44,102 nucleotides of DNA from a virus, in the IMG/VR virus record IMGVR_UViG_3300023171_000002, positions 1-44,102 of that record; one strand, given 5' to 3'. Shown one piece after another: positions 2,843 through 41,834 of the stretch; position 1 is the stretch's first letter, and every line of letters starts with the position of its first letter. The notes under the pieces were generated by a model, which worked only from the letters and a program-made list of their open reading frames with translations, was not told the DNA's origin and ran no database searches. Both the position numbers and the translations under genes were made by a program.

Positions 2843-3066
2843 ACCCGGTTCCACTTCCAATGATTGCGGCCGTACAGCACCCACAGGGCAGCATTCATCG
2901 GCAGGAGGCCGTAAGCGCCCGTTGTCAGTATCCAGAGGAGCCAGAGAGCTTGATTGACCAGACCGTACAGCCAAGCATTGCGGGACTTATTCCCGGCAAG
3001 GATCGTCATGTAGATCGTGATGGCCGAAAGCAGCCAAGGCAGTTGGTCGCGGATGATCTCGCTCAT
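2839..3066 (-). CDS. Small multi-pass membrane protein, PnuC-like segment
   Basis: A 75-residue protein with about three hydrophobic stretches (LLSAITIYMTILAG, LYGLVNQALWLLWILTT, LLPMNAALWVLYGR). The pattern W-L-Y-G-L-V-N-Q-x-L-W and the closing YGRNHWKW recall the repeat of PnuC-type vitamin transporters. It is far too short for a full transporter. ATGA overlaps on both sides show it is part of the leftward chain. A membrane location is well supported; transport is only a resemblance. Confidence 0.55.
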   Translation of the reverse strand: MSEIIRDQLPWLLSAITIYMTILAGNKSRNAWLYGLVNQALWLLWILTTGAYGLLPMNAALWVLYGRNHWKWNRV

Positions 3067-3080
3067 TGCAGCCTCCCCGT
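3063..3080. repeat. 18-bp direct repeat at a gene start (copy A)
   Basis: The sequence tcattgcagcctccccgt occurs here and again at 3284-3301. On the minus strand each copy supplies a GGGGAGG ribosome-binding site plus the ATG of a gene (2839-3066 and 3063-3287). An exact 18-bp match 221 bp apart points to duplication of a start module, or to recombination at this site. Confidence 0.7.
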
Positions 3081-3287
3081 GGCCGAAGTGGATGTTCTTT
3101 GATACGGAGACATATCCCCATCATGCGGTCGTGCATTCGACTGCACAGGCCCAATCTTTTCAGTGCAAGGAACGCAGCGAAAATGTTCATGGTCCAACCC
3201 GCACGAAGCAAAGTCATAGATCGCCGCAGAGGAGCCAACGGATGACATGAACCTGCCGCAGTCATCGCATTTCGGAAGATTGGTCAT
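3063..3287 (-). CDS. Small zinc-ribbon-like protein
   Basis: A 74-residue protein starting at ATG 3287, behind a strong GGGGAGG site. It has two CxxC pairs, C7-x-x-C10 (PKCDDCGRF) and C37-x-x-C40 (FRCVPCTEK), spaced as in a zinc ribbon or a treble-clef finger. The C-terminal 25 residues look disordered. Its stop overlaps the next gene's start (ATGA). The 18 bp around its start are repeated at the start of the following gene. Confidence 0.6.
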   Translation of the reverse strand: MTNLPKCDDCGRFMSSVGSSAAIYDFASCGLDHEHFRCVPCTEKIGPVQSNARPHDGDMSPYQRTSTSATGRLQ

Positions 3288-3301
3288 TGCAGCCTCCCCG
3301 T
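3284..3301. repeat. 18-bp direct repeat at a gene start (copy B)
   Basis: Second copy of the 18-bp element also found at 3063-3080. It contains the ribosome-binding site and ATG of the zinc-ribbon-like gene. Recombination between the copies would delete exactly that gene while leaving a usable start. Confidence 0.7.
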
Positions 3302-3336
3302 TGTTCTGTCTGTGAGGTGGTTAAGGGTGGGAGGGG

Positions 3337-3978
3337 TCATTGAGCTGCCGCCTGCGCTGAAATGGTATCGTTGCAGTTGGCGATCTGCATGGCGCGCTTG
3401 TTGCGCTCTATCATCTGTTCGGCTGTGATGACGGGGGCGTCCTTGAGTGCCATGATGCGCTCGAAATATTCGGCCTTTTCCTCGTTGAACTCTTCCGGCG
3501 TGGGAGCGAGGCCGTTGCGCTGCTTGTATTCCTGGTGCTCGTTCAGGAAGCCAAGGCGAAGGGCTTTGACGCGGGCCTGAGCCTCTGGCGAACGCTCTAC
3601 AACAGGCTCTGGCTTCATCGAGTCCAGAGTGGCACGGGCTCTGGCCAGATCGTCGCTGATCAACCGCTGTTCGGCGCGAACCATCGCAGCCAGTTCAGGG
3701 GGAAGCGGGATGAAAGACTTGCGATCGATATCGTATTCGCCGCGAACCAACTTCTTGCAGGCAATAGTTAGAGCCTCGCTCGACAATCCCGAAAGGGCGT
3801 AGGAATAGACCTTGTTGACATCTTCCGCCTTGATCGTGCTAGGGAGGCCCATGCCACCAGTCCGCAACGTGCGGATAGCCTTTGCCGCACCTTCTTCACC
3901 GCAGGGGCGAAGCTTGTCAGCGATGGCGGTAATCTGCTGCTGCAAGGTCGATGATGTTGCTACTAGCGCCGTCGTCAT
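3337..3978 (-). CDS. Putative replication accessory protein (helicase-loader-like)
   Basis: A 213-residue protein following, and overlapping by 62 nt, the initiator-like gene. The start is set at ATG 3978 (MTTALVATSSTLQQQ), with GGGA about 10 nt upstream; a longer frame upstream is antiparallel noise within the neighbour. Residues about 50-100 (KVYSYALSGLSSEALTIACK ... SFIPLPPELAAMVRAEQR) resemble the N-terminal region of phage P-type replication proteins, where a helical domain precedes a P-x-P-x-E segment. The C-terminal half is helical and charged. The position after an O-like gene supports a role in helicase loading, but no ATPase motif is present, so this stays tentative. Confidence 0.5.
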   Translation of the reverse strand: MTTALVATSSTLQQQITAIADKLRPCGEEGAAKAIRTLRTGGMGLPSTIKAEDVNKVYSYALSGLSSEALTIACKKLVRGEYDIDRKSFIPLPPELAAMVRAEQRLISDDLARARATLDSMKPEPVVERSPEAQARVKALRLGFLNEHQEYKQRNGLAPTPEEFNEEKAEYFERIMALKDAPVITAEQMIERNKRAMQIANCNDTISAQAAAQ

Positions 3979-5042: not shown

Positions 5043-5348
5043 ATGGCTACCGATTGGCGAACCAGACTCACAGATGCAATTGAGAAAGACGGTCGTTCCC
5101 GTCGCGAAATCGCACGCGAATGCGGGTTCGGAACCAATTTTGTGAGTGAACTGCTAGCTGGCGAAAAAGCGCCCAGCACTGACAGGGTAGTCAAGCTGGC
5201 AGAAGTTTTAGAGATCAGCCTGGCTTATATATTTACGGGCGTGGAAATGTCTCGGCAGGATGAAGAATTTCTGAAGATCGTGGCGGGTATGTCCGACAAA
5301 GAGAAAGAGCACCTGTTAGGTCTGCTCGAAACTCGCCAGAACAAATAA
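5043..5348 (+). CDS. HTH-type repressor (CI-like, XRE family)
   Basis: A 101-residue transcription regulator. Residues about 8-60 are an XRE/HTH_3 domain: TDAIEKDGRSRREIARECGF, then NFVSELLAGEKAPSTDRVVK and LAEVLEISLAYIF. The short C-terminal part (KIVAGMSDKEKEHLLGLLET) is an amphipathic helix likely used for dimerisation. It lacks the S24 autoproteolysis domain of lambda CI, so induction by RecA-stimulated self-cleavage is not expected. It is divergent from the Cro-like gene across an operator-like region and is the best candidate for the lysogeny repressor. No Shine-Dalgarno site precedes its ATG. Confidence 0.8.
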   Translation: MATDWRTRLTDAIEKDGRSRREIARECGFGTNFVSELLAGEKAPSTDRVVKLAEVLEISLAYIFTGVEMSRQDEEFLKIVAGMSDKEKEHLLGLLETRQNK

Positions 5349-6215: not shown

Positions 6216-6305
6216 TACCCGCTTCGCCCCGCCGCGAGGATGTCGCGGTCATGAACGTCGGTGGGCAGACGTGGCAGCTCGGAGAGACGGCAAATGGAGA
6301 ACAAA

Positions 6306-6500
6306 ATGACTGTAGGGCCGAAAGACTTTTTTGATGATGGCTTCGACGCAAGCCGTGACGGCGATAGCGCCTTACAGGCTGCGGCCCGCGAAGCCGGATG
6401 GGCTCTTTCAACTTTGGTTGATGAGATCAAATTTGAGAAGCGCCAACAGGTTGTCAACATCATCAATCGGCTGTCAGCGGCCCTCAAAGCCACCTCATAA
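6306..6500 (+). CDS. Small hypothetical protein
   Basis: A 64-residue protein. The start is chosen at ATG 6306 (MTVGPKDFFDDGFD) because GGAG sits 6 nt upstream; an in-frame ATG at 6294 with GGAGAGA further upstream is the alternative. The N-terminus is acidic and the rest helical. It is the only gene in this stretch without the repeated leader. Its last codons (encoding KATS) share a 12-bp identical segment with the end of the gene at 7035, suggesting related cassette ends. Confidence 0.5.
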   Translation: MTVGPKDFFDDGFDASRDGDSALQAAAREAGWALSTLVDEIKFEKRQQVVNIINRLSAALKATS

Positions 6501-6508
6501 GCAATCCA

Positions 6509-6566
6509 CAGCGGCCACAACCACCCAACCGGTGATCTGGTCGCTACATCGAAACCTCGGGAGAAG
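6509..6566 (+). repeat. Repeated leader, copy 3
   Basis: The first 46 bases match copy 2 with one mismatch (gatct against gatca). After GAAA the sequence diverges, ending CTCGGGAGAAG before the ATG at 6567. It lies immediately after the stop of the gene at 6306. Confidence 0.85.
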
Positions 6567-6971
6567 ATGATGAGCAAGAGAAACCGCCTGAAGAAAGAAG
6601 CTGAAGTAACCGCAGCATCCAAGCCCTTGTCGCCGTCATCCGGCCTGACACTCGGCTCTCACAAGTTTCCTGCCTTTGATGGCTTGTCGGCAGCGTTCGG
6701 CGCTCGTCTGGCGGACTACCCGAGGATGGAGGCTGTTCCGAAGCAGTTTCAGGAACATTCCGGCCAGTATCAGAACGTCGTCTCTTCGCTGTTTTTCAGG
6801 GGCGGAAAGCTCTCCGACTATGGCCTTGACTTCAAGCCATCGATCGACCGTGCCGCCGCCATGACCGCACTACGCGCCCTTCTCGGGTCGTTTGATCCGA
6901 AGCACGAACACAAGACCGCAGTCGTCGCATGGGCCCTGTCCGAGTGGTGTGATGGAACTCCAATCTCCTAA
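6567..6971 (+). CDS. Hypothetical protein
   Basis: A 134-residue protein following leader copy 3, with GGAGAAG just before two adjacent ATGs (6567, 6570). The N-terminal 25 residues are basic and probably disordered (SKRNRLKKEAEVTAASKP). The remainder appears globular, with DYPRMEAVPKQFQEHSGQYQ and a C-terminal helical section (AAAMTALRALLGSFDPKHEH). I do not recognise a family. It is the largest product of the leader-associated cassette and a good candidate for its functional core. Confidence 0.6.
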   Translation: MMSKRNRLKKEAEVTAASKPLSPSSGLTLGSHKFPAFDGLSAAFGARLADYPRMEAVPKQFQEHSGQYQNVVSSLFFRGGKLSDYGLDFKPSIDRAAAMTALRALLGSFDPKHEHKTAVVAWALSEWCDGTPIS

Positions 6972-6983
6972 CCCCGCAGTACC

Positions 6984-7034
6984 CCTCACCTCACCCATCT
7001 GCTCACTGCATAGAAAGACACAAGGGAGACTGAA
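6984..7034 (+). repeat. Repeated leader, copy 4
   Basis: This copy shares tcacccatctgctcactgca, then tagaaagacacaagggaga, with copy 5, with a single mismatch in the gctcact/ggtcact core. It matches the other branch of the family through the degenerate core GGTCRCTRCATMGAAA. GGGAGA provides the ribosome-binding site for the gene at 7035. Confidence 0.8.
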
Positions 7035-7220
7035 ATGCCGGAGTTGATCGCAGCGGTTCAGAACCTGCTCACGAACAAACAGTCCAAGTACACGGATCGG
7101 AACGGTCGGCGCATCAGCATTCAAGACGAGAACGGCGAACTGATGTGGCTCGTCTCGTTTGACGACATGATCGAAGTCGAAGCCGCCCTGCGCGATGTTC
7201 TCTCCAAAGCCACCTCCTGA
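7035..7220 (+). CDS. Small hypothetical protein
   Basis: A 61-residue protein with GGGAGA 8 nt before its ATG, inside leader copy 4. It begins with a helix (PELIAAVQNLLTNKQSKY), followed by DRNGRRISIQDENGELMWLV and a C-terminal helix (DMIEVEAALRDVLSKATS). The C-terminal KATS is shared with the product ending at 6500. Family unknown; it belongs to the cassette of small, individually led genes. Confidence 0.55.
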   Translation: MPELIAAVQNLLTNKQSKYTDRNGRRISIQDENGELMWLVSFDDMIEVEAALRDVLSKATS

Positions 7221-7752: not shown

Positions 7753-7946
7753 TCACCAACCGCCCACATATCGCCGTAGAAGTCCCCGTGGACACGCTTC
7801 AGGACATTCGCGGATGGGTAGCCCATTGGGAAGAGGACGCCCGTTGCAACCTCGTTCCGACGAGGGAAAGCCTTTCGATCGTTCGCGGGCTGATTGGTGC
7901 CGCGCTCGACCAGCCGCGTGTTTTCCAGTGGGAGGCAGTGGAATGA
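7749..7946 (+). CDS. Small hypothetical protein
   Basis: A 65-residue protein joined by ATGA overlaps to the genes on both sides. It starts MITNRPHIAVEVPVDTLQDI, followed by RGWVAHWEEDARCNLVPTRE and a short helix with GLIGAALDQPRVFQWEAVE. Nothing identifies the family. Coupling to the ASCH-like gene downstream suggests joint production. Confidence 0.5.
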   Translation: MITNRPHIAVEVPVDTLQDIRGWVAHWEEDARCNLVPTRESLSIVRGLIGAALDQPRVFQWEAVE

Positions 7947-8590
7947 CCGACAAACCAATTCTGTTTTCGGCGCCGATGGTCCGCGCCTTGCTCGCCGCGA
8001 CAAAGACGCAGACCCGGCGCGAGATCAAGCCGCGAGGTACGCGTCCGAGCATCTTCAACGGCGGGTGGACTGACAGCTATGTGCTCGACCCCGGCAACGA
8101 GAGCTGGCGGCGGCAGGATATCCGTGTTGCGACCGGCGACCGCTTGTGGGTCAAAGAGACGTGGGCACCGCTGACAGCCGTAACCCACAACGATCCCGGC
8201 ACTCAGGCAATCGCAGACGGCGGTTTCTATCGCGCCGACGAAGGCACGGTTGATGGCGAAGTCTCTAAGTGGAAGCCGTCGATCTTCATGCCCCGGCATG
8301 CATCGCGTCTCACCCTGACCGTCACCGACGTGAAGGTGGAGCGGCTGCAGGATATCAGCGAGGCCGACGCGAAGGCTGAGGGCGCGATCCCATATCATTG
8401 CGCGGCTTCGAAGCTGGACTATTACGGCCCGACCCACGCCATGTGCGGCCAAGATCACCGGGCAGGCTTTTGCCAAATTTGGGAAAAGATCAACGGCATC
8501 GACAGCTGGAACGCAAACCCATGGGTAGTTGCCTACACCTTCACGGTTCAGCGCGGCAATATCGATCAGATTGAGCGGGTGGCGGCATGA
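7943..8590 (+). CDS. ASCH/PUA-like domain phage protein
   Basis: A 215-residue protein starting at ATG 7943 (overlapping TGA 7944-7946). It opens KPILFSAPMVRALLAATKTQ followed by TRREIKPRG, the hallmark of a widespread phage family with an ASCH-type RNA-binding fold, sometimes labelled morphogenetic protein in databases. Further family features are GDRLWVKETWAP near residue 68, the RLTLTVTDVKVERLQDISEA block near residue 125 and the closing WNANPWVVAYTF. The real function of the family is unclear; binding to RNA or modified bases is inferred from the fold. Confidence 0.75.
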   Translation: MTDKPILFSAPMVRALLAATKTQTRREIKPRGTRPSIFNGGWTDSYVLDPGNESWRRQDIRVATGDRLWVKETWAPLTAVTHNDPGTQAIADGGFYRADEGTVDGEVSKWKPSIFMPRHASRLTLTVTDVKVERLQDISEADAKAEGAIPYHCAASKLDYYGPTHAMCGQDHRAGFCQIWEKINGIDSWNANPWVVAYTFTVQRGNIDQIERVAA

Positions 8591-8736
8591 GATACGACCT
8601 CGGCACTATCGCCGGAGCTAATCGCCCGTCCGACATCATGAGTGCGAACCGCAGATATGGATGGGGGCTGTTCTCCATTTTCATGCTCGCTGCCAATCTT
8701 TCTCTGATCATCTTCGCTGTGTGGGGGTGGAGATGA
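8587..8736 (+). CDS. Small single-pass membrane protein (49 aa)
   Basis: A 49-residue ORF whose ATG (8587-8589) overlaps the ASCH-like gene's TGA, and whose TGA (8734-8736) overlaps the next ATG (8733). Two ATGA junctions make it convincing despite its size. Residues about 26-47 (WGLFSIFMLAANLSLIIFAV) form one membrane span after a polar N-terminus. No known family; a membrane accessory role is possible. Confidence 0.6.
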   Translation: MRYDLGTIAGANRPSDIMSANRRYGWGLFSIFMLAANLSLIIFAVWGWR

Positions 8737-8918
8737 CCACAGTAACCCAGATGCGAGAGATTTTTATATTCAGCGCGCAGGGCTGGAAGCGAGATCGATC
8801 CAGAGCCCGCACCGCCGAACAATTCAAGGTAGCCCAAGACCATTTGGAAGCCTGCCGGAAGCAAGTCGAGTTCTGGCGCTCCAGAGAGAAGGAAATCAGC
8901 AATGACAATCGCCGTTAA
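8733..8918 (+). CDS. Small basic helical protein
   Basis: A 61-residue protein starting at ATG 8733 in an ATGA overlap. It is arginine- and lysine-rich with one long helix (TAEQFKVAQDHLEACRKQVE, then FWRSREKEISND). It overlaps the following gene by 17 nt. The composition suggests nucleic-acid or protein binding; it sits directly ahead of the recombination genes. Family not recognised. Confidence 0.5.
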   Translation: MTTVTQMREIFIFSAQGWKRDRSRARTAEQFKVAQDHLEACRKQVEFWRSREKEISNDNRR

Positions 8919-9672
8919 CGAACGCGCCGTGATTGGCGGGAACAATCCGCCCGTGCCGATGACAGCCTTCGACGCGATCAAGATTGATATAGATGATCTA
9001 TGCGAGGAGGCGAACGTCTGGCTGGACGGAGAACAGGTTACTACCCAAGAGCAAGCCGACGCCATCAATACCCTGATCGATCGCATCATGAAAGCGGCCA
9101 ATGCCGCCGACGAACAGCGTGGCATCGAGAAGGAGCCGCACGACACGGCAATTGATGAAATTCAGGGTCGCTACAACAAGCTGATTGCCGGGGTTTTCTC
9201 GAAAAACAAATCAGTCACCGGCAGCGCCAAGCTGGCTATCGACGCAGCAAAGAAGGCCCTCGCTCCCTACCTCTTGAAGCAGGAGCAGGAGCAGGCAGAG
9301 ATTGCCCGTCTTGCCCGCGTCGAAGCTGACCGCCTTCAAGAGCAGGCCCGTGAGGCCATGAGGCAGCGCGATGCAGCCAATCTATCACAGGTGGCTGAAG
9401 CCGAAAGCCTCGTCATCCAGGCTAAGGCAGCGACGAAGTTTGCCGACAAAGCCGAGGGGACCAAGATCCACGCCAGAGGGGAAGGCAGGGCAATAGGCCT
9501 CCGTACTGTCTACCGCGCCGTCATGGACGACAAGAAGCTTGCGGCGTCTTGGGTATGGGTTGATCGCCAGGACGAACTGATAGCCTTCATCCAAGACCTC
9601 GCAGACAAGGCCGTTCGTGGCGGCAAGCATACAATTCCGGGATTTTCCGTCATCGAAGAGAAAGTTTTGTGA
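8902..9672 (+). CDS. Coiled-coil protein of the recombination block
   Basis: A 256-residue protein. After an N-terminal segment (AVIGGNNPPVPMTAFDAIKI, a common opening of phage recombination-associated proteins), the centre is a long coiled coil from about residue 115 to 180 (EQEQAEIARLARVEADRLQE ... AREAMRQRDAANLSQVAEAE). The C-terminal part has WVWVDRQDELIAFIQDLADK, then PGFSVIEEKVL. It is coupled directly to the Rad52-like gene. It may act as an exonuclease partner or end-binding protein, but no catalytic motif is visible. Confidence 0.6.
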   Translation: MTIAVNERAVIGGNNPPVPMTAFDAIKIDIDDLCEEANVWLDGEQVTTQEQADAINTLIDRIMKAANAADEQRGIEKEPHDTAIDEIQGRYNKLIAGVFSKNKSVTGSAKLAIDAAKKALAPYLLKQEQEQAEIARLARVEADRLQEQAREAMRQRDAANLSQVAEAESLVIQAKAATKFADKAEGTKIHARGEGRAIGLRTVYRAVMDDKKLAASWVWVDRQDELIAFIQDLADKAVRGGKHTIPGFSVIEEKVL

Positions 9673-10415
9673 TGTTCGACCAGCTCTCTGCAGAATTCCC
9701 GCGTGATGCCATTAGCTGGCGTGCGCAGTCCGTCACGAAGGACGGCACCAAGGCAATGGCTTTGGCCTATATCGACGCCCGCGATGTTATGGACCGTCTT
9801 GACGAGGTGTGTGGACCGTCTGAATGGCAGGACCGATACGAGTTCCATGGGGCTCGTACCGTTTGCTACCTGTCGATCCGCGTCAATGGTGAATGGATCA
9901 CCAAGGCTGACGGCGCTGGAGACAGTGACGTAGAGGCCGAGAAGGGAGCTATTTCTGATGCTCTGAAGCGTGCCGCAGTCAAATGGGGCATTGGCCGATA
10001 TCTCTACCACCTCAAGTCACCGTGGGTTCCATGCGAAACTTCGGACTACAACGGCAAGAAGCAGTGGAAGAGCTGGACGGCAAGCCCGTGGGATTATGTT
10101 CGCGGCCAGCCACCAGTAGCCAAGAAAGAGCCTGAAGCTCCAAAGGCTACAAGCGCCGCAGAACAAAAGCGCCAGTTGCTGGAAATCGATAAGGATTTGC
10201 TCGACGCCCATTCCGTTTCCGATGTGAAGCGGGTTGCCGACATTTGGCAGACGATTGCCACCCGTGACGGTTGGTCACGAGATTACAAGCTAGCCGCCAA
10301 GGAGAAGTTCGACGCGGCCCGCGCCAGCCTCACCGACACGGTGGACGAAATCGAAAACACCTTCCCCGGTTCTCGCACTGTCGATGACCGTATGCACCCT
10401 CTCAACGCAGGATAA
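9672..10415 (+). CDS. Rad52/Rad22-family single-strand annealing protein
   Basis: A 247-residue recombinase-type annealing protein. It starts at ATG 9672 (the preceding stop shares its A; a GTG at 9669 is the alternative). The N-terminal 140 residues follow the Rad52 fold pattern: SVTKDGTKAMALAYIDARDV, EVCGPSEWQDRYEFHG, a beta segment VCYLSIRVNGEWI, GAGDSDVEAEKGAISDALKR with AAVKWGIGRYLYHL. The variable C-terminal region is helical. It should bind single-stranded DNA and anneal complementary strands in phage recombination and repair. SSB follows 6 nt downstream. Confidence 0.85.
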   Translation: MFDQLSAEFPRDAISWRAQSVTKDGTKAMALAYIDARDVMDRLDEVCGPSEWQDRYEFHGARTVCYLSIRVNGEWITKADGAGDSDVEAEKGAISDALKRAAVKWGIGRYLYHLKSPWVPCETSDYNGKKQWKSWTASPWDYVRGQPPVAKKEPEAPKATSAAEQKRQLLEIDKDLLDAHSVSDVKRVADIWQTIATRDGWSRDYKLAAKEKFDAARASLTDTVDEIENTFPGSRTVDDRMHPLNAG

Positions 10416-10421
10416 ATCATC

Positions 10422-10856
10422 ATGGCCGGCAGTGTTAACAAAGTGATTTTGATCGGAAATGTTTGCGCCGATGTGGAAATTAGGAGGACCCAGAGCGGTT
10501 CGCCTATCGCAAATTTGTCCATCGCCACGAATGAAACATGGCGAGACAAAAATTCGGGCGAGCGCAAGGAGAAGGCTGAATTTCACCGCGTCGTCATCTT
10601 CAACGAAGGCCTGTGCAAGGTGGCTGAGTCCTACCTGAAAAAGGGGAGCAAGGTCTATATCGAAGGCTCCCTCCAGACCCGCAAATGGCAGGATAAGGAC
10701 GGCCAGGATAAGTACTCGACGGAGATTGTACTACAGGGCTTCAACTCCACGCTGACGATGCTGGATGGACCCGGCGACAAGTCGAAAGACAATCATCGAG
10801 CCGATGAACCGGCCAAGTCATTTGCCGAAGACCTTGATGATGAATTGATCTTTTAG
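10422..10856 (+). CDS. ssb: Single-stranded DNA-binding protein
   Basis: A 144-residue SSB with a full OB fold: [80 protein letters not shown] and a final [10 protein letters not shown] strand. A short acidic linker ends in DDELIF, in place of the usual bacterial D-D-D-I-P-F tip; the acidic-hydrophobic character is kept. It coats single-stranded DNA during phage replication and recombination, and sits beside the Rad52-like annealing gene. Confidence 0.93.
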
Positions 10857-14730: not shown

Positions 14731-15020
14731 CAGTCTACACGCCGGCCACCCTTGCCAAGAAATGGGAATGTTCAGAGCGCCACGTGCGCAACCTTATCAC
14801 CAGCGGCCAATTGCCTTCATTCCGGCTTGGTGAAAAGCTCCTGCGGATCAGGGGTGAAGAAGTGGAGAAATTTGAATGCCAGATTGGCGCATCACACGAC
14901 TACGAGGAGAATATTGCCTCACCTGGGAAGACGAGGCTGGAGTCAGGCGCCGTTATAAGCTTGGAACAGCCGATCCGAAAGAAGCGAACCGCCGCGCCAC
15001 GTCTCGATATGCGGAACTGA
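14727..15020 (+). CDS. xis: Excisionase (MerR/HTH_17-like)
   Basis: A 97-residue protein starting at ATG 14727 in an ATGA overlap. Residues 1-52 form a winged helix-turn-helix of the excisionase/HTH_17 type: YTPATLAKKWECSERHVRNL, ITSGQLPSFRLGEKLLRIRG, then a helix with EEVEKFE. The C-terminal tail is basic (PIRKKRTAAPRLDMRN). It should bend DNA at att sites and favour excision. The integrase ORF starts inside it, so 145 nt are read in two frames. Confidence 0.8.
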   Translation: MTVYTPATLAKKWECSERHVRNLITSGQLPSFRLGEKLLRIRGEEVEKFECQIGASHDYEENIASPGKTRLESGAVISLEQPIRKKRTAAPRLDMRN

Positions 15021-15880
15021 CCAGACCGAAAGGTACGACGGTCAAGGATATCTGGAATGCCTACTGTCACGCCAAGGAGGGCTTGGCAGTGCTCGAGACG
15101 ATGAAACACACATGGAAGGCTCTCGAGCCAAGGTTCGGCCGCATAGAGGCGACAGAGGTATCAATTGACGATTGCCGAGCTCACACGCTCGAGCGCAGAG
15201 CAGCCAAGACCACGAAAAACCCAGACGGCATTCAGGATGGAACAATCCATACCGAGCTCGGACATCTGCGCATGGTGCTGAAGTGGGCCGAGAATAACCG
15301 GATCATTGCTCGAGCTCCACATATAGAGAGACCGGCCAAGCCAGAGCCGAAGGATTATCACATCTCGAGAGACGAGGTGAAGACACTGATGGCCTGCGCC
15401 AACGTCCCGCACATCCGCCTGCTCATCCGTCTGCTCATCAGCACAGGAGCTCGAGTGACGGCAGCGCTGCAGCTTACGTGGGACAGGGTGGAGCTCGACC
15501 GTGGGATTATCAACCTGCGTAACCCGTTCGATCGCTCGAGGCGGAAAGGACGCGCCACGGTGCCAATCAATAAGCAGTTGCTTGAGGATCTGCTCGAGGC
15601 CAAGAAACTGGCCATGTCGCCATTCGTCATAGAATGGGCCGGGAAGAATGTAGTCTCAGTAAAAAAGGGGATGAAGGCTGCGGCTATCGCGGCGGGGTTG
15701 CCGGATGTAACGCCGCATGTGTTGCGTCATTCGGCCGGCGTATGGCTGGCGGAAGACGGACACAGCATGGCGGAGATTGCGCAATTTCTCGGCCATGGGA
15801 ATACGCGGACAACGGAGAAAGTCTACGCCCGCTTTAGCCCGGAATATCTGCGCGGGCTTGCATCATCTCTCGAGCTCTAA
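14876..15880 (+). CDS. int: Tyrosine site-specific integrase
   Basis: A 334-residue phage integrase. ATG 14876 lies inside xis and has GGAG 8 nt upstream. Residues about 1-50 look like the arm-binding domain, 50-150 like the SAM-like core-binding domain, and 160-334 are catalytic. Visible catalytic residues are R193 (STGARVTAAL), probable K224 (RRKGRATVP), H281 and R284 (HVLRHS), H307 (LGHGN) and nucleophile Y317 (EKVYARF). It would recombine attP with a tRNA attB. The tRNA-derived attP lies 128 bp after its stop codon, the usual int-attP arrangement. Confidence 0.95.
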   Translation: MPDWRITRLRGEYCLTWEDEAGVRRRYKLGTADPKEANRRATSRYAELTRPKGTTVKDIWNAYCHAKEGLAVLETMKHTWKALEPRFGRIEATEVSIDDCRAHTLERRAAKTTKNPDGIQDGTIHTELGHLRMVLKWAENNRIIARAPHIERPAKPEPKDYHISRDEVKTLMACANVPHIRLLIRLLISTGARVTAALQLTWDRVELDRGIINLRNPFDRSRRKGRATVPINKQLLEDLLEAKKLAMSPFVIEWAGKNVVSVKKGMKAAAIAAGLPDVTPHVLRHSAGVWLAEDGHSMAEIAQFLGHGNTRTTEKVYARFSPEYLRGLASSLEL

Positions 15881-17614: not shown

Positions 17615-18094
17615 TTATTCTACGTGACGCCATGATTTTCGCCGCCTAATGTCAGAGACAGTTGTGAAGTGGATGCCGTATTCCGCAGCAATATCTACGA
17701 TGCGCCTGCTATCCTGACGGATGGCCCTAACCATATCGTCCGTTACCAGAGCATTTCCGTTTGCTTCGCCCGGGCGCGGGTGCGCTGTGTGCCGGGATTT
17801 CCCCATCATGTCGGCGGTATTGTCGGCCGGGGTTCCCAAGAATAGGTGATCCGGGTTCCAACAATTCCTTTTGTCACAGGTGTGAAGGACGAATATGCCC
17901 TTTGGGATTTCACCTTTATGCGCCCGATACGAATATCGGTGAACGCGCTCATTTACTGAGCCAATACGGATTTCACCGTACCCGTTATGTGTTTTGGAAC
18001 CCTGCCAAAGCCAGCACCCGCCATCTTCGATTATTGACTTAGCGTTCAGCCTGTCCAAAGCTGGGGTAATCATCATTCCTTTTTTGCGGCCCAT
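17615..18094 (-). CDS. HNH homing endonuclease inserted in the lysis cassette
   Basis: A 159-residue HNH nuclease. The start is ATG 18094 (MGRKKGMMITPAL), with AAGGAG 8 nt upstream; a longer GTG start at 18115 has no such site. Key segments are GGCWLWQGSKTHNGYGEIRI, then VHRYSYRAHKGEI, VLHTCDKRNCWNPDHLFLGT (HNH core) and a C-terminal helix-turn-helix (MVRAIRQDSRRIVDIAAEYG). The family is selfish DNA that cuts intronless alleles. It lies between holin-like and i-spanin genes and is visibly richer in A+T than its neighbours, suggesting a recent arrival. Confidence 0.88.
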   Translation of the reverse strand: MGRKKGMMITPALDRLNAKSIIEDGGCWLWQGSKTHNGYGEIRIGSVNERVHRYSYRAHKGEIPKGIFVLHTCDKRNCWNPDHLFLGTPADNTADMMGKSRHTAHPRPGEANGNALVTDDMVRAIRQDSRRIVDIAAEYGIHFTTVSDIRRRKSWRHVE

Positions 18095-18174
18095 TTTACA
18101 ATCTCCTTGTTGCACAAGTGACTGTAATATAATTATCTTTTAAAGTCGTCCTCGCGCTCCGAATTTTCGGTGGA

Positions 18175-18456
18175 TTACTGCTTAACCTCTACGCTCGTCG
18201 TAGTTGGGGCGCTCTGGTCGATGGCCTGCGTTGCAGCTGCGGCCTTGTCTTTGTTTCGATCGTCAATCACGCCGCTGAAAAGGTAGCCATTGGCGATGAT
18301 GCCGATCAGGAGGAAAGCGCCGTTCACGATATCCTGGTTAAGCCGCGTGTCTTCACCCGCAAGGGTTAGATAGATTATGACCACATAACAGACGCCAAGA
18401 GTTGAGAAGACGGCCCAGCGACGCCAGAGCCATGAGCGTTCAACAAAAGCTGGCAT
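18175..18456 (-). CDS. Holin-like small membrane protein
   Basis: A 93-residue protein. ATG 18456 overlaps the endolysin's TGA (ATGA); a longer open frame upstream lies inside the endolysin gene. Two membrane segments are clear: WAVFSTLGVCYVVIIYLTLA and NGAFLLIGIIANGYLFSGVI, joined by a short polar loop (GEDTRLNQDI). A charged C-terminal tail follows (DDRNKDKAAAATQAI). Two spans, small size and coupling to an endolysin fit a class II holin. It could instead be another lysis-cassette membrane factor. Confidence 0.7.
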   Translation of the reverse strand: MPAFVERSWLWRRWAVFSTLGVCYVVIIYLTLAGEDTRLNQDIVNGAFLLIGIIANGYLFSGVIDDRNKDKAAAATQAIDQSAPTTTSVEVKQ

Positions 18457-18890
18457 CAGCCGTCCTCGTAGAGTTTGGATTTTTTGGCCCAGTCGCGCCA
18501 TGGGGTCAGCTCGAAATGGGGCATGTCCCAAGCGTCCGATGTGGTTTTGTCGCCGTCCATGTTCCAATCGCCACCCCAGCGCAGCGGGATGCCCTTCTCC
18601 TTGGCAATCCTCATGACGATATCGGCCAGCCGCTTGAAGGCCTTCCGATCGTTCCAGTCATAGGGGAATGGGAATAGATCGAACGCGATTGCCGGCACAT
18701 AGTTGTGAGCAGACTGGCCGAACTTGGCCTTGCTCTTCCCGGTCTTATAGGCCCGGGTCTGCGCATCCCGGCCCCTGGTGCTATCGAGCACGCGGAAATC
18801 CATCTCCTTGATGGCCTCGTTGGCAATCGTCTTGAGATGCGGATGGCATTTGGACAAGTTTGTGAGCGATGCAACGCCGAAGACGGGCAT
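18456..18890 (-). CDS. Endolysin, M15-type L-alanyl-D-glutamate peptidase
   Basis: A 144-residue peptidoglycan peptidase of the VanY/M15 group. Zinc and active-site residues are visible: H62 and D71 in GQSAHNYVPAIAFDLFP, and H125 in WDMPHFELTP. An upstream S-T-R-G-x-x-x-Q-x-x-A segment (DSTRGRDAQTRAYKTGKSKA) is also typical. It would cut the stem peptide cross-link region of the host wall. There is no signal peptide, so release depends on the holin-like protein coupled downstream. Confidence 0.88.
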   Translation of the reverse strand: MPVFGVASLTNLSKCHPHLKTIANEAIKEMDFRVLDSTRGRDAQTRAYKTGKSKAKFGQSAHNYVPAIAFDLFPFPYDWNDRKAFKRLADIVMRIAKEKGIPLRWGGDWNMDGDKTTSDAWDMPHFELTPWRDWAKKSKLYEDG

Positions 18891-18994
18891 GGTGATGTCC
18901 TTTGATTGTCAGGGGTGTTTGGCGCTTGCCTGATAGGTTGCACCGATGATACGAGATCCAACCGGGGCGACATGACCCCGAGGGTGGGGAAAAG
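18891..18994 (+). promoter_or_regulatory. Divergent gap with candidate promoter and hairpin for the methyltransferase gene
   Basis: This 104-bp gap separates the leftward endolysin from the rightward methyltransferase gene. TTGCCT followed, 16 nt later, by GATACG is a possible rightward promoter. A 5-bp hairpin CGGGG (18963-18967) / CCCCG (18976-18980) sits about 14 nt before the ATG and just upstream of the GGGGAAAAG site. It could modulate translation. All of this is by eye. Confidence 0.3.
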
Positions 18995-20023
18995 ATGAAA
19001 CACAGCCGGAAGCCGACGAGACAGGACGTAACTTCGTGCTACAATTTGTTGCTAGGCCGTGAGCCCGAGAGCCAAAAGGCTGTTGATTGGCACGTCAACA
19101 CCAGCAACACCGTCGCGGACATGATCGCCAAGATTGTCCGAAGCGATGAGTTTGAAAGCCGGTTCGGGATATTCAGAACTGGGACCTTCATGGCCGCAGA
19201 CAAATTCGAGGTTGAGGTTGAATCCACCCCAGAGCAGCTTTCGAAGCTATTGGATCGCACCGCCCTCACTTGGAACGAGTTGGGCGTGGACGAGCCGCAC
19301 TGGTCGGTGATCACGGACCCCAGCTTCAAGAGCGAAAGCATTGAAGCCAACCAGGACTCATTCTACAAAACAGGCGAGGCAGAGATTGGCCGGTTAGGCG
19401 CTCTCCTGCAGCGCAATGGCCTATCCTTCAGCAAGGACGCGACTTGCATTGACTTCGGCTGTGGGGTCGGCCGGCTGTCCCTGCCTCTGTCTGATCGCGT
19501 GAATAAGGTGATCGGCGTTGACATATCAAACGGTCATCTCACCGCAGCGAGACATGCGGCCACAAAGTACGATAAGCCGAATGCCTCGTTCGTAAAGATC
19601 GATGCCGTCAGCGATCTAGACAACCTGCCATCGTGCGACTTGCTGGTCACCCTGATTGTCCTTCAGCACAACCCGCCGCCGGTCATGCTCGCCATTCTGG
19701 AAAAGCTCCTTGCGCGTCTGAATCCGGGCGGCGTTGCAGTCTTCCAAGTCCCTGTTTACCGGGAAAACTACAGCTTCTCGATTGAAGAATATCTAGCGAA
19801 AACCCGCAGCCTTGACATGGAAATGCACCCTTTGCCGCCCAGCAAGGTATTCAAGGCAGTCTCAAAGGCCGGATGCGCCGTTCTTGAGGTCCGCGAAGAC
19901 CTGCATGCCTATATGAGAGACATCGTTTCTCAGACCTTCCTCGTCCAGAAAGCGGCCGTGGAAAAACGTCCTTCGATCTGGAGCCCGTCTTATTGGCTTT
20001 CGAGCAAGACATATGACGAGTGA
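18995..20023 (+). CDS. SAM-dependent methyltransferase with DUF4214-like N-terminus (moron)
   Basis: A 342-residue protein on the strand opposite to the late genes. Residues about 8-60 (VTSCYNLLLGREPESQKAVD ... MIAKIVRSDEFESRF) resemble DUF4214, a module often attached to surface-polysaccharide enzymes. Residues about 145-270 are a class I methyltransferase: motif I CIDFGCGVGRLSL (151-163), VIGVDIS (172-178), LLVTLIVLQHNPPP and LNPGGVAVFQVP. It could methylate a host surface sugar in the lysogen. It is convergent with, and overlaps by 34 nt, the tailspike gene, whose receptor may be the same polymer. This functional link is inference. Confidence 0.7.
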   Translation: MKHSRKPTRQDVTSCYNLLLGREPESQKAVDWHVNTSNTVADMIAKIVRSDEFESRFGIFRTGTFMAADKFEVEVESTPEQLSKLLDRTALTWNELGVDEPHWSVITDPSFKSESIEANQDSFYKTGEAEIGRLGALLQRNGLSFSKDATCIDFGCGVGRLSLPLSDRVNKVIGVDISNGHLTAARHAATKYDKPNASFVKIDAVSDLDNLPSCDLLVTLIVLQHNPPPVMLAILEKLLARLNPGGVAVFQVPVYRENYSFSIEEYLAKTRSLDMEMHPLPPSKVFKAVSKAGCAVLEVREDLHAYMRDIVSQTFLVQKAAVEKRPSIWSPSYWLSSKTYDE

Positions 20024-22182
20024 ATGGCGACGGCAGCTCCGCTCGATGTCGTGACCTTTATCGAGATCGTGTCTGTGGCGCCGAAAGCGATGCCAGATGC
20101 AGTGGCCGCTTTTACCGAGAAGGACGCAGCGCCGGAAATCGTGCCCGTCAATGCGGTATCGACGTTGTTAATCCGCAAGACATATGTGAACGTCTGGCTT
20201 GCACCAGGTGCTGCACTCACCCGAACATAGAACTCCGTAACGCGTGACGGGCGAGCAACGACCGAATATGCTTCGGCCTGCGTTGGTGTCGCCTTGCCAG
20301 CCCCGAGATAGTAGACGGAATTGGTGGGAACTGACCCGCTAGCCTGATAGGTGTCATGGCGAGTGGGATTGCCCATGTCCGAGGACGAGCCCTGCGCAAA
20401 ATGGTTGACTACCATATTTGACGAGCGGTTATTCCATGCGCGGTTGAAGTTGGCGGTGGCATCCTCAACGACGAGCGAAGTGGCATAGCTTGAACTGTCT
20501 TGAATGCCGATGTTATCGTAAATATCGTTTTGCTGTGCGGAGTTGGTGAGAGCAATCGCATTCGGGAAAGTCGCAGATCCGACATTCTGAAGCGTGTTGT
20601 TGTGCACTTTGGAGCGCGTAACACCGGAAAGCAGGATAGCCGATTCATTGACCTTGCTGATGATGTTGCCACTGATCTCGCAGAAATCACCCGTCGCAAT
20701 CTGAATCGTCTTCTGGCTGGACGAAATAGCCATATCTCTATCAGAGAAAATATTATCCGGGATAATGAGGCCAGAGACCTCTGAAGCATCAACGAGAGAG
20801 CCGGCAGTTGACGCTCCCCAAGGGGAGTAAGTGTTCGCCCGGATAATCGAATTTCTGATATTCTTGGTGCCGGTCTTGCCGCGCAGGTAAACCATAGCGC
20901 CGCCGCCTGCTTGACGGTTGCACTCGATGGTGATGTCACGGTTTAGAATGCCCACTCCAGCGGCTGTGGCGTTGATGTTGACCAGGTTTGCAGACGTATT
21001 TGCAACATCCTCCACCGTGAAGGTGTTTTCGTAGATGCCGAGGGAACCTGTGCCGGGGCCGATGAGGAACCCGACGCCCGTGCAGTATAGGTCGTTGAAG
21101 GTGTAGCTGGCATCAGTCCCCGGATACGTGGTTGCATCCGAAATATCGAGGAAGTGAAACCCGCGAGCCTGGCAGTTGCGGATTTCAGCGGCTCCATAGC
21201 CGATCTGCTTGATGCATGTTCCGCCCTTGTTGGGGCTGTCAAACCGGGTCTTTGTAATCGACCACCAGCCGGCAAACTCAGTGCGCAGGCTTTCGAGCGC
21301 AAGGGAGTTTCGGTTGAAAAAGCCACCTTCCATGCGGACGAAGAAAGGCGCTTGTGCCGTTACCAGCGTTCCGTAGATGAAGCGCCACTGGTATTGCATA
21401 ACCGCCGTTGCACGGAACTCCGAGGCCCCGAGCATGAAATGGATGGGTTTGTGACGAGGTTCGAAAAGGAGGCCTGAAGGTGGGGTATATGCGCCGCCTG
21501 ACCCATCGGCCACTTGAGGCACCCAATCGATCGGCAAATTATGGAGATAGACTTTATAGCCGGGGGTGGCCCCAATGCCACCGTATGTGCAGAGGTAGTT
21601 GGCCCACAATTGCAAAGCCGCTGTATCGTTGGCTACACCATTACCAATCGCACCGAAGTCTTCCGGGTATGCGATGCCGAGCGCTTTACGTGCGTTCACG
21701 CCAAGGTCGAGCGTCACCCGCTGGGCGGCGGCATCGGCATCATCCAGTAGCGCTTTACCGGCCGCTGTCAGGTCGAAGGTTCCGGCCGTACCTGCACCCG
21801 TGAACTGAATGCCCTTATTGGCGGCACTGGTTAGCGCAGCAATGGCTGTAAGGTCCGCATCATAGGCTTGGACGTTGGTTCCGATGGCCAAGCCAAGATT
21901 TGTGCGGGCTGTGCCAACATTGGCGACATCCGAAAGATTGAGAGATGACCTGAGAAACCCGATCGGCGCATATGCATCAAACGCCTGTTTCGTCGTCAAT
22001 GGCGTCATACGCTTGGAAGGGTTGGTCCCAGCCTCCGCTTCTGCCTGAGAGGCGACGGGCGCCCCGGCATCCACCAGCTTTTGAATGGTGGTTTGCCGGG
22101 TGGTTGCGCCATCAATGGCCACAACTTCGCTAGCTACCGGGGAGTTTTCCACCGGCAGGGCATTAATCCGAATTTCAGCCAT
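19990..22182 (-). CDS. Tailspike / pectate-lyase-like beta-helix protein
   Basis: A 730-residue receptor-binding protein. Residues 1-160 are a virion-attachment region with an Ala/Thr-rich phage fibre repeat (LGLAIGTNVQAYDADLTAIA). At about 175-190, DFGAIGNGVANDTAALQ is the start of a pectate_lyase_3 beta-helix. The middle shows many N- and I-rich rungs (NIRNSIIRANTYSPWG, FCEISGNIISKVNESAILLS). The C-terminal 130 residues are a beta-rich trimerisation/binding cap. It probably cleaves or binds host capsule or O-polysaccharide. The 3' end overlaps the methyltransferase gene. Confidence 0.8.
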   Translation of the reverse strand: MAEIRINALPVENSPVASEVVAIDGATTRQTTIQKLVDAGAPVASQAEAEAGTNPSKRMTPLTTKQAFDAYAPIGFLRSSLNLSDVANVGTARTNLGLAIGTNVQAYDADLTAIAALTSAANKGIQFTGAGTAGTFDLTAAGKALLDDADAAAQRVTLDLGVNARKALGIAYPEDFGAIGNGVANDTAALQLWANYLCTYGGIGATPGYKVYLHNLPIDWVPQVADGSGGAYTPPSGLLFEPRHKPIHFMLGASEFRATAVMQYQWRFIYGTLVTAQAPFFVRMEGGFFNRNSLALESLRTEFAGWWSITKTRFDSPNKGGTCIKQIGYGAAEIRNCQARGFHFLDISDATTYPGTDASYTFNDLYCTGVGFLIGPGTGSLGIYENTFTVEDVANTSANLVNINATAAGVGILNRDITIECNRQAGGGAMVYLRGKTGTKNIRNSIIRANTYSPWGASTAGSLVDASEVSGLIIPDNIFSDRDMAISSSQKTIQIATGDFCEISGNIISKVNESAILLSGVTRSKVHNNTLQNVGSATFPNAIALTNSAQQNDIYDNIGIQDSSSYATSLVVEDATANFNRAWNNRSSNMVVNHFAQGSSSDMGNPTRHDTYQASGSVPTNSVYYLGAGKATPTQAEAYSVVARPSRVTEFYVRVSAAPGASQTFTYVLRINNVDTALTGTISGAASFSVKAATASGIAFGATDTISIKVTTSSGAAVAIHSSYVLLESQ

Positions 22183-22190
22183 GATTGCTC

Positions 22191-23069
22191 CTAGAGCTTG
22201 ATGCAGCGAAGAGTTGTGGTGGAGCGAGGGCGGGTTTCCGTCGCTGTGCGAACGACCAGGGAGGCGTTGAAGCCCGTCTTGCGCCTTGTCACCGAGGTAG
22301 CCACATCGACCGCCAAGTCAGCGCCGCCGAGGCCATCGTCAAAGAATGCGCCGGTCCAATCCGCGATATCCTCGGGACTGGCCACAGCAGTTCGCCGGGA
22401 GGAGAATCCGCCCGTGATGTTCTGGATTGCGTCAAGCTGGGACTTGCCAACGGTCAGCGTTGCATCGACCCCACGGCCATCATCGGCGCCGCGCTCGAAC
22501 TCACCACGGCTATCAAACAGCGGCATGCGCTTGTTTGTCGCAAAGTCAGCAGCCGCAGAAGCGCCACGGGTTGTAGCTACGCCGCCGTTTGTCTGGATTG
22601 GCAGGGTGGTGTTATCGAACTGACCCCAGAGGAGTTCGAACAACGGCTGAGTGTCGGCATTGGCCCGCGTGGTTGCGCCGGACGTTGGGTTGCCGATCGT
22701 GCCGCCGTTTTCCTTGATCCAGCCTGCCGGGGCTGTGGTTCGCCGGAAGCCTTGGACAGCGCCAGTTGGGACCGCAACAGCCGTTACCGATGCCGCGACC
22801 GCCGTAATCTGGGCAATGACGGCAGTCATCTGCGCGAAATTGGTGTAATCCCCATCGGCGGAGCCAGCGGCTGCATTGGTTATTTTAAAGCCAGCGGCTG
22901 AAATATTGCCAGACAGCGGCGCCGCACCGGATCGATAGAGTGCTTGGCTCAGCATTGATTGGATATCGTCAAACGGAACGTTCACTTGTGCGGCTAGCAC
23001 CTTTTGGCCGGTGACAGCCCTATCCCGCGTGACGGTTGCGTTGCCGTTTGTGTCGATTGGCATCGGCAT
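22191..23069 (-). CDS. Tail fibre protein with collar domain
   Basis: A 292-residue fibre-type protein. The N-terminus (PIDTNGNATVTRDRAVTGQK, then VNVPFDDIQSMLSQALYRSG) is a common attachment segment. It is followed by a collar-domain core (VPTGAVQGFRRTTAPAGWIK, then GGTIGNPTSGATTRANADTQ and MPLFDSRGEFERGADDGRGV), the usual P-x-G ... A-P-x-G-W pattern of phage tail collar fibres, and a C-terminal beta region ending in LRCIKL. It precedes the tailspike and probably works with it in adsorption. Confidence 0.8.
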   Translation of the reverse strand: MPMPIDTNGNATVTRDRAVTGQKVLAAQVNVPFDDIQSMLSQALYRSGAAPLSGNISAAGFKITNAAAGSADGDYTNFAQMTAVIAQITAVAASVTAVAVPTGAVQGFRRTTAPAGWIKENGGTIGNPTSGATTRANADTQPLFELLWGQFDNTTLPIQTNGGVATTRGASAAADFATNKRMPLFDSRGEFERGADDGRGVDATLTVGKSQLDAIQNITGGFSSRRTAVASPEDIADWTGAFFDDGLGGADLAVDVATSVTRRKTGFNASLVVRTATETRPRSTTTLRCIKL

Positions 23070-40559: not shown

Positions 40560-41144
40560 TTATGCTTTGGCAAGCCCACCATGGTCATGAAGCGCCTGCA
40601 ATCCCCTGCGAAGCCACACCTTTTGCTGACCCTGCAGTTTTCGCATATGGTCATGATCCATAACGGCTATGTTATATGTCATGGCTCGCACCTGTGGCCC
40701 GTCCTCGCATCGAAGCAATAGGCCCGTTAGCTCCATCATCTTGTTGCTGGCCTGTCGAGCACGATTGGCCTTGTCTGCCGATATATCACCCTCATGGCCA
40801 TGGATCGTAAAGAGCGTCTGAGCCCTAGCGCTTGGGAATGGGATACCCGTCAAGCGGTGGTATCGAGCAATCGCCTCAGCGTAGGCGTCTCCTGCCGCTA
40901 ACTGCTCATCCGTGATATGCCCATCCAGGCGAATACGGCCGAGCGTGTAGCCTGCCAGTGGGCTTTCGTTCATGTTTGCTCCATGCAGGCGTTGGCGGGC
41001 CTCTACGACTACCGATCGAGCTTCCTTCTCGGTCCATGATGGTTTGATCTGGCCAGACGGAAACCTTTCCGCTCCCTCCTTTGGCGGTCTGCCTGCAGAG
41101 GAACGGCGCTTGGGGGTGCGGATCTTCAAGAGCTTACTGGCCAT
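40560..41144 (-). CDS. Basic hypothetical protein, possible late regulator
   Basis: A 194-residue protein with AGGGA before ATG 41144. The N-terminal 50 residues are basic with an R-R-S-S-A-G-R-P-P-K segment like an AT-hook (TPKRRSSAGRPPKEGAERFP). The rest is helical (SWTEKEARSVVVEARQRLHG, LDGHITDEQLAAGDAYAEAI, then QQKVWLRRGLQALHDHGGLA). It is the last protein of size before the late genes, the place where a late-gene activator or antiterminator often sits. This is positional inference only; it could also be packaging-related. Confidence 0.5.
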   Translation of the reverse strand: MASKLLKIRTPKRRSSAGRPPKEGAERFPSGQIKPSWTEKEARSVVVEARQRLHGANMNESPLAGYTLGRIRLDGHITDEQLAAGDAYAEAIARYHRLTGIPFPSARAQTLFTIHGHEGDISADKANRARQASNKMMELTGLLLRCEDGPQVRAMTYNIAVMDHDHMRKLQGQQKVWLRRGLQALHDHGGLAKA

Positions 41145-41715
41145 GTTTTGTCCCTTTTTGGTATGGTTCGCGATCAGTTCCAGTGAAGCCAAGGACGCGC
41201 TCCGCAGCTTTGCGGGCAATCTCAGCGTGCTGTTTCTCTTTGAAGGCGCCGAGGTAGACATGGCGCGGGCCATTCCAGATGCGGGCTACCCAGCTTCCCG
41301 CATATCCGTCATTGCGCGGCTTCCAATTGACGCCATGAACGCCAGACGTATTGTTGATGCGCTTGCTGCCGTTACGCTGGTTTTCGCTCTTAGTGACCTT
41401 GCGCAAATTGACGAACCGATTGTCAGCTCTGTTGCCGTTGATGTGGTCAATCTCAAAATCGGGATAAACTACGTTCTCCCCGGTCATTATCAGCCAAGCC
41501 ACCCTATGGGCTGAATAGTATTTCTTATCGATGATGATCTTGGCGTACCCATCAGCATTCGACCCTCCGGCTACCTTCCCAACGCGCTGAAGATGAATTG
41601 TGTAGAGTTCCTGCCTATCAAAATCCGACCGGGGCCGTTCCTTGAAAAAGAATGTGCCACTTTCAGGGGCATAGTTGTAATAAGCCATAGCTCGTGCTTG
41701 AGTTAACTCAGCCAT
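41134..41715 (-). CDS. HNH-AP2 homing endonuclease
   Basis: A 193-residue protein. The start is ATG 41715 (MAELTQARAMAYYNY), with GGAAGGA upstream. Residues about 60-110 have YYSAHRVAWLIMTGENVVYP, then FEIDHINGNRADNRFVNLRK, the HNH core. Residues about 120-180 carry SGVHGVNWKPRNDGYAGSWV and HVYLGAFKEKQHAEIARKAA, an AP2 DNA-binding domain. This domain pair defines a mobile endonuclease family. It overlaps the next gene by 11 nt and sits behind a 119-bp AT-rich gap, in keeping with insertion. Confidence 0.9.
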   Translation of the reverse strand: MAELTQARAMAYYNYAPESGTFFFKERPRSDFDRQELYTIHLQRVGKVAGGSNADGYAKIIIDKKYYSAHRVAWLIMTGENVVYPDFEIDHINGNRADNRFVNLRKVTKSENQRNGSKRINNTSGVHGVNWKPRNDGYAGSWVARIWNGPRHVYLGAFKEKQHAEIARKAAERVLGFTGTDREPYQKGTKHGQ

Positions 41716-41834
41716 TGTCGATCCTTCCACGATCGGTTTGGTTAGAGCCAGATAAGGGTTGCCGCCCGCTTCTGGCTCGTTGATTCTACAATGATTTGAA
41801 TAGCTTTTCACAATATACATCGAGTTAGTAACAG

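Follow-up and report, generated by a model that had tools for sequence, protein, structure and literature searches.

Serotype conversion by phages is known mostly as glucosylation and acetylation in enteric bacteria. Phage conversion of the O-antigen is established and is represented by the gtrABC genes of P22 and epsilon34 and by Sf6 seroconversion, in which temperate phages with O-antigen-binding tailspikes carry single-purpose genes for surface-sugar modification that are mobile between phage types, as we describe below for a methyltransferase gene (PMC2629481, PMC8973906). For phage Kapi1, the authors entertain the possibility that an altered O-antigen underlies superinfection immunity (PMC8787464). 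WbdD of E. coli O9a is in turn an established example of O-polysaccharide capping by methylation; it is a SAM methyltransferase of ABC-transporter-dependent O-antigen assembly, and its capping ends polymerisation (PMC3482155, PMC11231755, the latter for its modules). Furthermore, FkbM-like, glycan-type methyltransferase cargo has been described in the temperate alphaproteobacterial phages PhiLM21, Phi3LM21 and AP-16-3 of Sinorhizobium (PMC5537653, PMC10460002). Combining these precedents for the gene studied here, we propose as the best explanation, at even odds, lysogenic conversion by methylation of a host surface glycan, with masking as its probable purpose.

The gene lies in a complete IMG/VR record of 44,102 bases (IMGVR_UViG_3300023171_000002), hereafter the window, whose head and tail genes are of the P22-like type. 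The window contains the following features:

5043-5348, + strand: cI-like HTH gene, possible repressor
14876-15880, + strand: tyrosine integrase
18456-18890, - strand: endolysin (Peptidase_M15_4; phrog_465)
18891-18994: gap of 104 bp between the methyltransferase gene and the divergent endolysin gene
18963-18980, + strand: short GC hairpin within the gap, with a 5-bp stem
18995-20023, + strand: methyltransferase gene, an ATG open reading frame of 342 aa with a PBS-linker/DUF4214-like N-terminal domain and a class I SAM methyltransferase domain
19990-20023: overlap of 34 nt between the convergent 3' ends of the methyltransferase and tailspike genes
19990-22182, - strand: probable beta-helix tailspike, 730 aa, with Beta_helix and tail-fibre N-terminus matches
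22191-23069, - strand: tail fibre/collar protein

Its integrase and cI-like gene mark the phage as temperate, and integrases are also present in related records. In agreement with the initial annotation, the methyltransferase gene is a lone rightward gene amid leftward late genes, flanked by the endolysin and tailspike genes on the opposite strand; it has a gap of its own and overlaps the 3' end of the tailspike gene. The overlap is due to approximately 20 C-terminal residues (window 19950-20023) by which the window protein exceeds its homologues in the phage records L003 and L004, and model confidence is low in this extra part (residues 323-342). Tailspikes usually share their N-terminus with relatives and diverge over the rest. 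The first ~70 residues of the window's tailspike are 49-53% identical to related phages and the remainder is unmatched, while its Beta_helix match (E=3.1e-4) is short of the Pfam cut-off and is accompanied by the tail-fibre N-terminus matches. The window also contains two HNH_3 endonuclease genes of likely homing type, one in the late region (17615-18115, -) and one near the right end (41134-41820, -).

The hairpin and promoter-like boxes that had been read into the gap did not hold up. Shuffled sequences fold as well as the hairpin (z=-0.30), and a promoter scan gives no match in the gap, where the best boxes under relaxed settings are equalled by 27.5% of shuffles; the sole match of the scan (19018-19045) falls inside the gene, with one found and 1.1 expected by chance. 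Hairpin and boxes are at chance level and do not count as evidence. Between the window and the contig L002, which carries a close homologue, the gap differs by 3 substitutions in 103 aligned bases and two 1-nt indels, against 22 of 160 fourfold sites of the gene (Fisher P=0.004), in one pairwise comparison in which part of the gap serves the ribosome-binding site of the endolysin. This conservation beyond the fourfold sites suggests that the gap is functional.

The encoded protein comprises two predicted domains:

19019-19168 (codons 9-58), + strand: four-helix PBS-linker/DUF4214-like domain
19430-19759 (codons 146-255), + strand: SAM-binding methyltransferase core with motif I DFGCGVGRL and a conserved QHNPPP after strand 4

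Codon differences between the window and L002 (36 synonymous, 7 non-synonymous) give a dN/dS of 0.047-0.065, which identifies this as a real gene under purifying selection. Its identity as a methyltransferase, proposed in the initial annotation, is confirmed by a Methyltransf_25 match over residues 152-246 (E=5.7e-14) that lies far above the Pfam gathering cut-off (53 versus 27 bits). The modelled methyltransferase domain is confident (mean pLDDT 84.5) and has a Rossmann-type fold; its nearest solved structures are small-molecule (natural-product and metabolite) methyltransferases. A BFVD fold search returned many generic methyltransferases and was uninformative. By sequence and model, we assign the protein to the class I SAM-dependent methyltransferases of small-molecule type and count this enzyme class as established.

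DNA N6/N4 amino-methyltransferases carry motif IV, [DNS]PP[YFW], after strand 4. In the window protein the corresponding stretch reads TLIVLQHNPPP and has no aromatic residue, so that [DNS]PP[YFW] is absent there, and QHNPPP occupies the place of the post-strand-4 motif of small-molecule enzymes. This argues against an anti-restriction role as a DNA or RNA methyltransferase and against a mad2 component of the MADS defence system, as do the absence of a nuclease or specificity partner beside the gene and the fact that the protein reaches no NCBIfam equivalog. Although PHROG names include 'tRNA methyltransferase' (E=7.9e-13) and 'DNA methyltransferase' (E=1.8e-7), and PADLOC matches mad2 (E=3.4e-19), we consider both of these roles highly improbable. 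The mad2 identity itself was rejected, as the match covers model positions 290-454 of 492 only and the model matches 15/15 family members and 8/8 control methyltransferases, 3 as well or better. Libraries and fold searches taken together point to small-molecule enzymes and not to the DNA/RNA or protein methyltransferase that had been named as the outcome contrary to a surface-glycan role. The nearest NCBIfam models (UbiG, BchM and BioC) and the natural-product and metabolite enzymes among the nearest structures would allow for a metabolic role, with a lipid, a quinone or another small molecule as substrate and no connection to glycans, but the NCBIfam scores are all below the family cut-offs and reflect the common fold, and the genomic neighbourhoods described below indicate glycans; we judge this explanation improbable.

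By profile and modelled fold, the N-terminal domain resembles the DUF4214/phycobilisome linker domain. A profile built from 15 of these domains (13 in the family, 2 in neighbouring methyltransferases of the bacterial locus L083) finds phycobilisome linkers in the PDB with E=5e-15, a best sequence score that sums several repeats, and the best Foldseek matches of the modelled four-helix domain are PBS linkers with weak E-values (0.4). The module had been called DUF4214-like, which stands as a relation to PBS linkers but not as membership of DUF4214, since the match to that family (PF13946; E=0.0084) reaches 16.6 bits against a gathering cut-off of 23.2. The match to PBS_linker_poly (E=0.0072) is also sub-threshold, and DUF4214 is matched at E<=0.05 by 3/15 family members. 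In the L083 glycan cluster, this N-terminal module also opens two further genes of methyltransferase type, one of them FkbM.

Full-length homologues with 29-40% identity are encoded by Sphingomonas, Rhizorhabdus, Altererythrobacter, Brevundimonas, Polynucleobacter, an Acetobacteraceae MAG, a deltaproteobacterial plasmid and others, and a sample of 399 genomes from the family of S. quercus includes 4 with a homologue at E<=1e-60. In the 399 genomes of that family, the window's endolysin has no match at E<=1e-25, which is no firm indication of the host. A glycosyltransferase lies within 10 kb of the gene at 6 of 14 homologue places versus 1.75 expected (P=0.0045), in a count that uses two glycosyltransferase models and corrects neither for clustering of glycosyltransferases, which would lower the expectation, nor for kinship among the places, which would make the test weaker; among the 12 closer places the figure is 4 (P=0.057). 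Two further places (L083 and L085), beyond the counted six, have glycosyltransferase-type neighbours by Pfam. One relative (L087) lies within an ABC-transporter-type polysaccharide cluster, recognised by Pfam for its glycosyltransferase and by reading for its other genes, a setting that resembles that of WbdD. Five homologues (L081, L084, L089, L168 and L169) have no glycan neighbours. L168 was discarded as a prophage case, as its homologue apparently lies outside the phage genes, adjoining a chromosomal FadL-like gene (by reading). In Sphingomonas quercus (L169), a second chromosomal copy of the family adjoins a beta-helix protein gene (7835-9277 and 9540-10682, -), possibly as the remains of a phage or as a pairing with a polysaccharide lyase. 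The enrichment of glycosyltransferases supports the tie to surface-polysaccharide pathways to which the initial annotation had pointed. Judging from this genomic context, the substrate is rather likely to be a host surface glycan.

Among viral records, L002 shares the gene and its gap with 95% DNA identity, and the homology begins at window position 18888, the start codon of the endolysin gene. Since the endolysin of L002 is GH19-like and unlike that of the window, gene and gap have moved as one cassette, and we count cassette mobility as established by this comparison. This sharing of gene and gap without the endolysin, together with an empty slot in the related phages L205 and phiGT1, agrees with the earlier view of the gene as a moron insofar as inserted cargo is concerned. 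The homologues in L003 (58%) and L004 (57%) have DNA similarity to the window confined to the gene; in both records the methyltransferase gene is a single gene that converges on the tail-fibre side and has lysis genes on its other side. L004 also encodes a 220-aa alpha/beta-hydrolase between tail fibre and methyltransferase (2932-3594, -), possibly an esterase with the same glycan as its target. The homologue in L012 faces tail-type genes and that in L007 a probable structural gene, so that members of the family face a tail or probable tail gene in at least four other phages. In L006, a shorter relative is located between a tail-type protein of ~1560 aa and a Gly_transf_sug glycosyltransferase gene, and the relatives in L005, L009 and L011 show no adjacency to tail genes. 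The viral contigs L013, L014, L015 and L016 have series of genes of sugar-nucleotide, glycosyltransferase-like and methyltransferase type, and their phages may glycosylate their own virions or the host. P0001 had no tblastn match among named phages (INPHARED), and a genome scan with a single sequence as query gave no confirmed match.

The position beside tail genes and the relatives in phages with sugar genes (L006 with its Gly_transf_sug gene, L013-L016) would also fit a methyltransferase made late in infection that modifies the phage particle itself, with the tailspike or a virion glycan as conceivable targets. We consider this quite improbable, as no glycosyltransferase is found among the window genes scanned and the gene opposes late transcription in the window, L003, L004, L007 and L012.

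The slot between tail and lysis genes carries other genes in further phages. An isolate-derived prophage record (L170), whose endolysin is 87% identical to that of the window, encodes an FkbM methyltransferase (6222-7082, -) on the opposite strand between the tail genes and the endolysin. In Rhizobium phage RHph_I3_18 (L209), the best-matching named phage by its neck/stabilisation protein, the slot is occupied by a zinc-ribbon Methyltransf_23 gene (EVC14_020, L209:18643-19650), which is co-directional with the late genes, and late expression is therefore possible in that phage; EVC14_020 has no match in any other INPHARED phage. Elsewhere the slot contains an annotated acetylesterase (RHph_N2) or an HNH endonuclease (L171). 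The recurrence of methyltransferases of three families in this slot, in cases picked by inspection without a counted control, is suggestive. It speaks against a surface-glycan methyltransferase that is kept for host fitness (against other phages, grazers, drying or on plant surfaces), unlinked to this tailspike, with the slot as a cargo-tolerant place in late operons, because the three kinds recur beside host-recognition genes. Such a fitness role would also account for the glycan context of the family, is in line with the HNH endonuclease in L171, and has precedent in morons with other functions beside tailspike genes (PMC2629481); we regard it as unlikely. A broader proposal, which we put forward as a doubtful though conceivable one, is that alphaproteobacterial temperate phages have in common a site for conversion genes, flanked by the host-recognition gene and the endolysin and repeatedly filled by unrelated sugar methyltransferases, which would cap or decorate the polysaccharide of the neighbouring tailspike and mask the receptor in parallel to Gtr and O-acetylation.

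For the window, lysogenic conversion would proceed as follows. The moron, which together with its upstream region forms an insertion between tailspike and endolysin in this temperate P22-like phage, would be expressed in lysogens, where the PBS-linker/DUF4214-like N-terminus could dock the enzyme on the glycan-assembly machinery of the host. The methyltransferase domain would then transfer a methyl group from SAM to a surface-polysaccharide sugar still in the cytoplasm, and the methylated sugar would form part of, or cap, the polymer that the tailspike presumably recognises. The lysogen could thereby become hard to infect for this phage and its relatives through superinfection exclusion. For this full chain, including receptor masking and with superinfection exclusion as its inferred outcome, our expectation falls somewhat short of even. 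If methylation is a third common conversion chemistry among environmental alphaproteobacteria, prophage genes labelled merely 'methyltransferase' could be assigned a testable part in receptor masking, and their location next to the spike gene would aid in matching spikes to their sugars.

In the open-licence literature, we found no paper combining DUF4214, methyltransferase and polysaccharide, and none joining O-methylation, phage resistance, polysaccharide, methyltransferase and adsorption; both are weak absences. The principle of surface-sugar conversion by phages is already known from gtr of P22 and epsilon34 and from Sf6, and FkbM cargo is on record. However, conversion by P22, epsilon34 and Sf6 attaches glucose or acetyl groups and the gtr products are membrane proteins, whereas the window encodes a predicted soluble SAM methyltransferase with a PBS-linker-like domain and a proposed role in conversion. 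The FkbM-like genes of the Sinorhizobium phages belong to a different protein family. WbdD contains a kinase domain and a coiled coil and methylates phosphate, whereas the window protein has neither kinase domain nor coiled coil. In contrast to phycobilisome linkers, the N-terminal domain of the window protein is fused to a methyltransferase, is no part of a phycobilisome and falls under the DUF4214 cut-off. Within the open literature, what looks new is that this two-domain family forms a mobile cassette in phages and that unrelated methyltransferases recur in a single slot next to the host-recognition gene.
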